DNA from: Chloroflexota bacterium
GTDB taxonomy: Bacteria; Chloroflexota; Anaerolineae; B4-G1
Assembly (NCBI GenBank): GCA_024232355.1
Contig: JAAEPW010000810.1
Span: 1 to 62,329 of the forward strand
DNA length: 62,329 bases
Reading direction: 5' to 3'
Positions 43,813-44,589 of this stretch are shown here, one piece after another. A program made the position numbers and the translations under genes. Each line of letters begins with the position of its first letter. The first letter of the stretch is position 1. Under the pieces are notes generated by a model. The model was not told where the DNA came from. It ran no database searches and saw nothing but the letters and a program-made list of their open reading frames with translations.

Positions 43813-44589
43813 ATGGATGGTAGGTTACTGTTAGGGCTTTGGCGAGCCATGATCCCGCTTCCGCGTGCGCTGTGGCAAAAGGCGGTGTTCCATGAGGTGC
43901 GCAAGACGGAAAGGCGTCTTGATTTCATAACGCCGGAACATCGCACAGTTCAACACTTTGTGGTCAGAGAGCTTGCGCGTATCGGTGGACCGGTGTCACC
44001 CGAGTTCGTTTCGCAGGAGGTGAGCCTTCCTGTCGAGCAGGTAAACGTCATCTTGGGCGAGTTGGAGGCCCACATGACCTTTTTGTTTCGAAATGCACAG
44101 GGGGCGGTCACCTGGGCATACCCCGTGACCGCGGACGAGACGCCACACCGTGTAACTTTTGCCACTGGCGAGCAAACGTACGCTGCTTGAGGGATGGACG
44201 CGGTTGCGACGCCCTTCGTGCAAGGGCAACTGTGGGGAGAGCATCTGTCGTTCGTCGTCGAAACAGAGTGCGCCAATTCTGGGCAACTGATTCAGATCGA
44301 GATAGATAGCGAATTAAAGTATCGCATTGCAAAAGGTGAGGCTGATCTACGTATCTTTGTGCCGCTCATTGATGTGGACAAGCTGGACGACCCCAGCATC
44401 ATTGACGCATTCTGACGCAAGTCGGTATTCTTCTGGTCAGAAGAACAAGCGAGGAGCTATCGGCGCAGGGTGGGGGCGGTGCAAGGCATGTATCTGACGT
44501 TGGATCAAGCAGTATTCATTAATCGGATTATGCAGTCGACGTTGTTTGGGTTCCCCAAGTCTAGCTGGGTGGATCATGTGCCAGGGTAG
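43813..44589 (+). CDS. MerB-family organomercurial-lyase homologue, predicted with two selenocysteines
   Basis: One reading frame runs from the ATG at 43813 (GGAGG seven bases upstream) to a TAG at 44587, interrupted only by TGA at 44188 and 44413. Read through, it gives 258 residues like alkylmercury lyase: VVRELARIGGPVSPEFVSQE (winged helix), TYAA-U126-GMDAVATPF, C153 in ETECANSG, DAF-U201-RKSVFFWS, and a tail with GAVQGMYLTLDQAVFIN. Against MerB recalled from memory, U126 falls on Cys96, Asp129 on Asp99, C153 on Cys117 and U201 on Cys159. MerB cleaves carbon-mercury bonds with these residues. The frame is intact across both TGAs and each is followed by a hairpin. TGA is a normal stop in other genes here. 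I recall NCBI naming selenocysteine MerB-like proteins SaoL, but could not check. Confidence 0.85.
44203..44230 (+). promoter_or_regulatory. Candidate SECIS hairpin after the first TGA
   Basis: GTTG (44203-44206) pairs with CAAC (44227-44230), and CCCTT (44212-44216) with AAGGG (44222-44226). The five-base loop CGTGC contains a GU. The loop lies 27-30 bases after TGA 44188-44190. It lies inside the coding sequence, as bacterial SECIS elements do. It is less canonical than the second one. Confidence 0.55.
44428..44445 (+). promoter_or_regulatory. Candidate SECIS hairpin after the second TGA
   Basis: TTCTTCT (44428-44434) and AGAAGAA (44439-44445) form a perfect 7-bp stem with apical loop GGTC. 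The loop begins 19 bases after the TGA at 44413-44415. In the E. coli fdhF SECIS a GGUCU-type loop sits at much the same distance (recalled). This is what SelB needs to recognise. Confidence 0.7.

Follow-up and report, generated by a model that had tools for sequence, protein, structure and literature searches.

A MerB-family gene of a Chloroflexota bacterium predicted to encode selenocysteine at both mercury-binding positions

A contig of 62,329 nucleotides from a Chloroflexota bacterium (GenBank assembly GCA_024232355.1, contig JAAEPW010000810.1; the whole stretch is referred to here as the window) carries a MerB-like gene at positions 43813..44589 of the forward strand, the reading frame of which contains two in-frame TGA codons. 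MerB is the textbook enzyme that breaks methylmercury, and the two TGAs occupy exactly the positions of its mercury-binding cysteines. As predicted from the DNA, the gene is almost certainly a double-selenocysteine variant of the MerB family. The evidence comes from the alignment with MerB, the conservation of both TGAs among distant relatives and a hairpin that follows each TGA at a fixed distance.

A MerB-family protein with TGA at both ligand positions

Translation of 43813-44589 with TGA read as selenocysteine (Sec, U) yields a protein of 258 residues with U126 and U201, terminated by a TAG at 44587-44589. A ribosome-binding-site-like GGAGG (43801..43805, forward strand) ends 7 bases before the ATG, and a second in-frame ATG lies further upstream at 43774. 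Re-reading of the DNA confirmed the frame, the ribosome site, both TGAs and the terminal TAG, all of which an earlier sequence-only reading of the window had reported. Under the standard code the region encodes pieces only, namely a stretch of 138 residues that starts at the upstream ATG (43774) and another of 73 lying between the two TGAs.

The read-through protein matches the Pfam family MerB (PF03243) with 55.8 bits (E-value 5.8e-15), well above the gathering cut-off of 27, and structure prediction assigned it the MerB fold. Profile alignment to solved MerB chains placed residue 126 (TGA at 44188..44190) on Cys96, D129 (44197..44199) on the proton donor Asp99, C153 (44269..44271) on Cys117 and residue 201 (TGA at 44413..44415) on Cys159, all codons lying on the forward strand; the MerB numbering follows the consulted parts of PMC4525700 and PMC8261052. 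This alignment agrees with the claim of the sequence-only reading that the TGAs replace both mercury-binding cysteines, with the aspartate and a third cysteine kept. According to PMC8261052, the residues Cys96, Asp99 and Cys159 show strict conservation in MerB. Judged by this triad, Asp99 is represented by D129, and the two cysteine positions align, both with TGA as their codon. D129 is invariant in a 34-row family alignment and also kept in 22/22 genes of clade A, the clade of the window gene described below.

Compared to MerB of known structure (PDB 3f0o and 1s6l), the window protein has the Pfam family, the predicted fold, the equivalents of Asp99 and Cys117 and the aligned ligand positions in common, but differs in that both ligand cysteines are encoded by TGA and that the sequence identity is 17-20%. 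MerB2 (PDB 5c17), with an identity of 15%, has its own cysteines at both ligand positions and a serine at the Asp99 position.

Both TGA codons are conserved among full-length relatives

A first scan covering one genome per species revealed seven loci, six of which are full length with TGA at both sites (site 1 and site 2, corresponding to residues 126 and 201); the seventh (L007) is truncated and retains the second TGA. Three of these loci, L001, L003 and L002, lie in the genomes G001 (Chloroflexota), G003 (Desulfarculus) and G002 (Zixiibacteriota), respectively. Profile searches of 400, 395 and 132 genomes of the phyla of G001, G003 and G002, with the already known genomes included, added 16 full-length relatives; partial or remote profile matches (5, 2 and 3, respectively) and the truncated L007 were left out of this count. 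At the DNA level, each of the 22 full-length relatives possesses TGA at sites 1 and 2, with neither Cys nor TGG there in any of them; they are 37.5-60% identical to the window protein. No relative was found in the viral contigs searched.

Among proteins in databases, a profile search of 5.8 billion sequences retrieved 1600 relatives at E <= 1e-20, and the best 120 of the 1600 are included in the 149 family proteins that two protein searches provided. The 149 listed proteins comprise 99 N-terminal fragments, of which 98 stop at model position 125, the residue preceding site 1. Another 41 have Trp at both sites. Six proteins stop immediately ahead of site 2, five of them with Cys at site 1 (P0025, P0072, P0074, P0076 and P0080) and the sixth with Trp there. 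Homologues with cysteine, by which the sequence-only reading proposed to judge the Sec assignment, are thus available for residue 126 in these five proteins and for residue 201 in P0068 and P0070. An in-frame TGA conserved throughout, together with cysteine-bearing relatives at each site, is the pattern of a selenoprotein.

Two further observations concern the ends of these proteins. In eight loci (L031, L032, L034, L040, L043, L047, L049 and L050), the read-through frame passes another TGA just beyond the end of the homology, so that TGA probably serves in these genes as a Sec codon and as the true stop alike. A twin-arginine motif is present in 17 of 97 N-terminal fragments, or 17 of 28 within the P0029-P0057 set ending before site 1, which suggests from the sequences an exported form. 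The window protein has no such motif.

SECIS-like hairpins follow both TGA codons

Each TGA is followed on the forward strand by a hairpin resembling a selenocysteine insertion sequence (SECIS). Hairpin 1 (44211..44227) has the stem GCCCTT/AAGGGC and the loop CGTGC, spanning nucleotides (nt) 24-40 from the first TGA, whereas hairpin 2 (44428..44445) has the stem TTCTTCT/AGAAGAA and the loop GGTC, spanning nt 16-33 from the second. A G-U loop at such a distance resembles the SECIS of E. coli fdhF. In 22/22 family genes, consisting of 21 relatives and the window gene (L004, a near copy of L003, was dropped), a hairpin is found after each TGA at a constant distance.

Codon usage displays a strong constraint at these hairpins. 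Among 222 seven-codon segments analysed for synonymous codon identity, the 18 strongest sit on or overlap the two hairpins, with observed/expected values of up to 2.39 compared to a median of 1.10. Codons 136 (GTG), 138 (GGG), 207 (TTC) and 210 (GAA) are unchanged across all 22 genes. Moreover, codons 208-209 read TGG-TCA in 17 genes and CGG-TCG in the other five, combining a Trp-to-Arg substitution with a silent base change in Ser; the paired changes thus keep the closing pair of hairpin 2, from U-A to C-G.

Pairing of the stems was then compared across the MerB family (L113, the same gene as L075, is excluded from the stem counts). At site 2, 336 of 350 stem cells are paired in 50 TGA genes, against 183-229 in six slid controls and 136 of 231 in 33 Cys homologues. 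The loop GGTC (GGUC in RNA) at nt 23-26 occurs in 46 of the 50 TGA genes versus one of the 33 Cys homologues. At site 1, pairing is complete in both clade A (132/132 cells) and clade B (90/90), the second group of double-TGA genes; the slid controls reached at most 89/132 and 55/90, and the same positions in Cys homologues are paired in 100/270 cells for the clade A stem and 101/270 for the clade B stem. As the stem positions were picked from these same sequences after the hairpins had been seen, an excess over the slid controls is partly expected, and comparison with the Cys homologues provides the more reliable control. Altogether, a SECIS-type hairpin, its role being predicted, lies downstream of both TGAs.

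The peptide FFWSEE or FFRSEE encoded by codons 206-211 is typical of the TGA-bearing proteins. It may be imposed by the hairpin, judging from the sequences, since the Trp-to-Arg substitution pairs with the silent base change in Ser and the peptide is mostly absent from the Cys homologues compared.

Two clades of double-TGA proteins in the MerB family

A PF03243 search of 307 genomes of the G003 phylum revealed 43 matches, 27 with two TGAs, 4 with one, 11 with none and 1 with an internal TAA; the TGA positions among the 27 were confirmed for the 15 with loci. The corresponding search of 311 genomes of the G001 phylum yielded 48 matches, with two TGAs in 5, one in 13, none in 29 and an internal TAG in 1. 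Loci of 60 of the 91 matches were combined with the 21 clade-A relatives, the window gene, L024 and L030 into 84 rows. At sites 1 and 2, these rows have TGA/TGA in 38 cases (37 once the duplicate L113 is removed), Cys/Cys in 32, Cys/TGA in 13 and Ser/Cys in one.

The phylogenetic tree was built from 81 rows, omitting L113 as well as L097 (TAA inside) and L095 (an odd row), the latter two being dropped from the tree only. Clade A (22 rows, support 100/100) is separate from clade B (15 rows, 96/73), which adjoins Cys/Cys proteins and consists of 14 members from the G003 phylum in addition to L030. The labelled tree requires two changes to double TGA, yet the approximately unbiased test does not reject a single origin (p 0.178); two separate origins, as read from the sequences, are therefore likely rather than firm.

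Similar to clade A, clade B has TGA at both ligand positions and the site-2 hairpin. However, it differs in a Glu at the Asp99 position, a site-1 hairpin nearer the TGA (loop at nt 21-25) and its separate place in the tree. The 13 single-TGA MerB-like proteins mostly share the site-2 hairpin with the GGUC loop of the window gene, but they have Cys at site 1, with only site 2 replaced, and occupy different places in the tree.

One clade-B member has an unusual arrangement: L030 (reverse strand; the same place as L081) contains a double-TGA MerB domain within an open frame of 518 residues, which by eye continues into an AAA-type-ATPase-like region. Its genome, G007, also possesses a Cys/TGA MerB (L024) and the truncated clade-A gene L007.

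Comparison with known selenoproteins

The sequence-only reading had suggested that such proteins may already be named SaoL. A 2026 review (PMC13188914) assigns SaoL to the Sec-assisted organometallic (SAO) system as a MerB-like selenoprotein with a presumed action on organometals, and tabulates it with one Sec in a CU motif. The window protein scores 41.9 bits against the SaoL model NF040728, the cut-off of which is 140; six more clade A and B proteins score 43-51.3 bits and one single-TGA protein 33.6. No Sao model occurs among the matches listed for the three adjacent window genes (for the ATPase, the best 25 of 214). Given this score and the single Sec of SaoL, we rejected the name.

Entries labelled 'MerB-like' and 'MerB2' appear in the consulted parts of published selenoprotein lists (PMC9312934 and PMC7435645). 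A MerB with two selenocysteines is not described in the literature searched, in which the Haft papers were covered via the table and references of the review, and MerB is unmentioned in the text of PMC2398784, PMC5029168 and PMC12013277. Single-Sec MerB-like selenoproteins are hence known already, and the new feature is the predicted Sec at both ligand positions.

Genomic surroundings

A major facilitator superfamily (MFS) transporter gene (42288-43652, by family match) lies upstream of the MerB-like gene, and the promoter scan detected no promoter immediately 5' of the latter. Downstream, an ATP-binding cassette (ABC) ATPase identified by family match (44651-45403) probably starts at the ATG at 44651, 61 bases past the stop codon of the MerB-like gene, and is followed by an FtsX-type permease. 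None of these neighbouring genes has a conserved place next to the MerB gene in the relatives. An APH-family phosphotransferase, far below the NCBIfam APH(3') cut-off, is located at 54629-55681 on the minus strand.

By eye, a MarR-like gene is situated just upstream in L068, L069, L070 and L072, and a MerR-type-like gene beside L003, L004 and L066. These neighbours (7/22 relatives) fit an inducible detoxification gene and prove nothing.

Proposed function and alternatives

We propose that SelB would read each hairpin and insert Sec, as the frame, the conservation and the hairpins suggest. Following MerB chemistry, the organometal would bind to Sec126 and Sec201, Asp129 would donate a proton to the departing carbon and the hydrocarbon would leave; the metal would stay bound to both selenolates until taken over by thiols or some other partner. 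It is thus likely, by analogy, that organomercury is cleaved or trapped by two selenolates. More specifically, the protein is probably a two-selenolate organometal lyase, the TGAs being read as Sec via the hairpins and a carbon-metal bond, for example that of methylmercury, being cleaved.

Several points weigh against this reading. Sec at residues 126 and 201 is a prediction from the DNA. The NCBIfam MerB models were missed by a wide margin (NF033555, 44.4 bits versus 200; NF009710, 54.5 versus 193), and 0/8 proteins scored, namely five of clade A, two of clade B and one single-TGA protein, reached any NCBIfam cut-off, that of SaoL among them. Among the 149 database relatives listed, one has Gly/Leu (P0010) and two have Ser/Cys (P0068 and P0070) at the two sites, and in P0070 the Asp129 position is occupied by His; these three clade-A-like proteins are possible non-Sec forms. 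The site-1 stem hardly varies, which displays constraint and almost no covariation. In addition, the total folding energy of the TGA-containing segments does not stand out (mean rank 0.31 and 0.44), energy alone being a weak test for SECIS elements (Kolmogorov-Smirnov p 0.0009 for site 1 and 0.13 for site 2).

The Sec machinery and the neighbourhood belong to the same side of the balance. The machinery was counted in the genomes of the relatives, the window's own genome being outside the data. SelB above the cut-off is present in 7/7 genomes of the first set and 15/16 of the second, amounting to 21/22 full-length carriers; the carrier G518 shows none. ARAGORN identified a tRNA-Sec with the anticodon TCA in 6/7 first-set genomes, the best match in G005 not being of this kind. 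As 176/198 and 158/201 background genomes of the same phyla also have SelB above the cut-off, its presence in the carriers is not an enrichment but a matter of consistency, needed and not telling. Clustering of simple open reading frames within 8 kb of the 22 relatives and the window gene (23 loci) revealed no conserved operon or partner gene; the two largest clusters, one of mixed signalling-type proteins and the other of ABC-type ATPases at varying distance, cover 6/23 loci each. Finally, no MerA-like protein was found among the 14 window proteins scanned, merA not having been searched in the relatives.

The best-surviving alternative, which we regard as unlikely, accepts the double selenoprotein and denies the lyase: the selenolates would trap, chaperone or sense a soft metal (Hg, Cd, Cu or As) and deliver it to an export system, for instance the downstream ABC transporter. 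Mercury is bound more tightly by selenolates than by thiolates, so that its release after cleavage could be slow. The lack of a MerA-like protein among the 14 window proteins scanned, the ATPase and permease genes that follow the MerB-like gene, and the twin-arginine motif of some N-terminal fragments would all suit such a role. Nevertheless, Asp99, which MerB needs for protonolysis, is retained as D129 throughout the 34 alignment rows and the 22 clade-A genes, which speaks for cleavage, since a mere trap would not need it. Moreover, direct comparison showed that no gene similar to the window's ATPase adjoins the MerB gene in the relatives; the nearest similar ATPase-permease pair is ~5 kb away, and at one locus only (L076).

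Decoding of TGA as tryptophan, by natural suppression or a changed code, is highly improbable. It would account for the 41 Trp/Trp proteins and for the one with Trp at site 1, but every source contig of the 41 is <=2,397 bases long, as expected if a gene caller had translated TGA with code 4, which we infer to be their origin. Five of the 13 window genes matched by a Pfam or NCBIfam model terminate at TGA (6/15 when two unscanned or unmatched open reading frames are added), and this codon is therefore an ordinary stop here rather than simply reassigned. Furthermore, TGG is never found at either site among the 22 genes read at the DNA level, some relatives have Cys, and the SECIS-like hairpin follows the TGAs and not the Cys codons.

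The reading of the TGAs as two chance stops, in a pseudogene or through a sequencing artefact, for which the halting of gene callers at the first TGA might be taken as a sign, is refuted for practical purposes, in line with the judgement of the sequence-only reading: the same two TGAs recur in 22 genome assemblies at the divergence given above, under purifying constraint that extends to synonymous positions and with hairpins behind them.

Implications

More tentatively, and with the odds leaning somewhat the other way, the double-TGA genes might represent a widespread Sec/Sec organomercury-degrading class in Sec-using anaerobes, which would have arisen twice, have its sequence partly fixed by the SECIS hairpins and be hidden by gene calling. 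A census that requires full-length, Cys-bearing MerB would miss the family, since nearly all fragments end before the first TGA. Demethylation potential may accordingly be undercounted in the G003 phylum, where most PF03243 matches sampled carry two TGAs. If the prediction is true, Sec in place of both cysteines would alter how the metal is bound and how it is released, and the double-Sec family would provide natural enzymes for probing the role of selenium at a metal-carbon bond.
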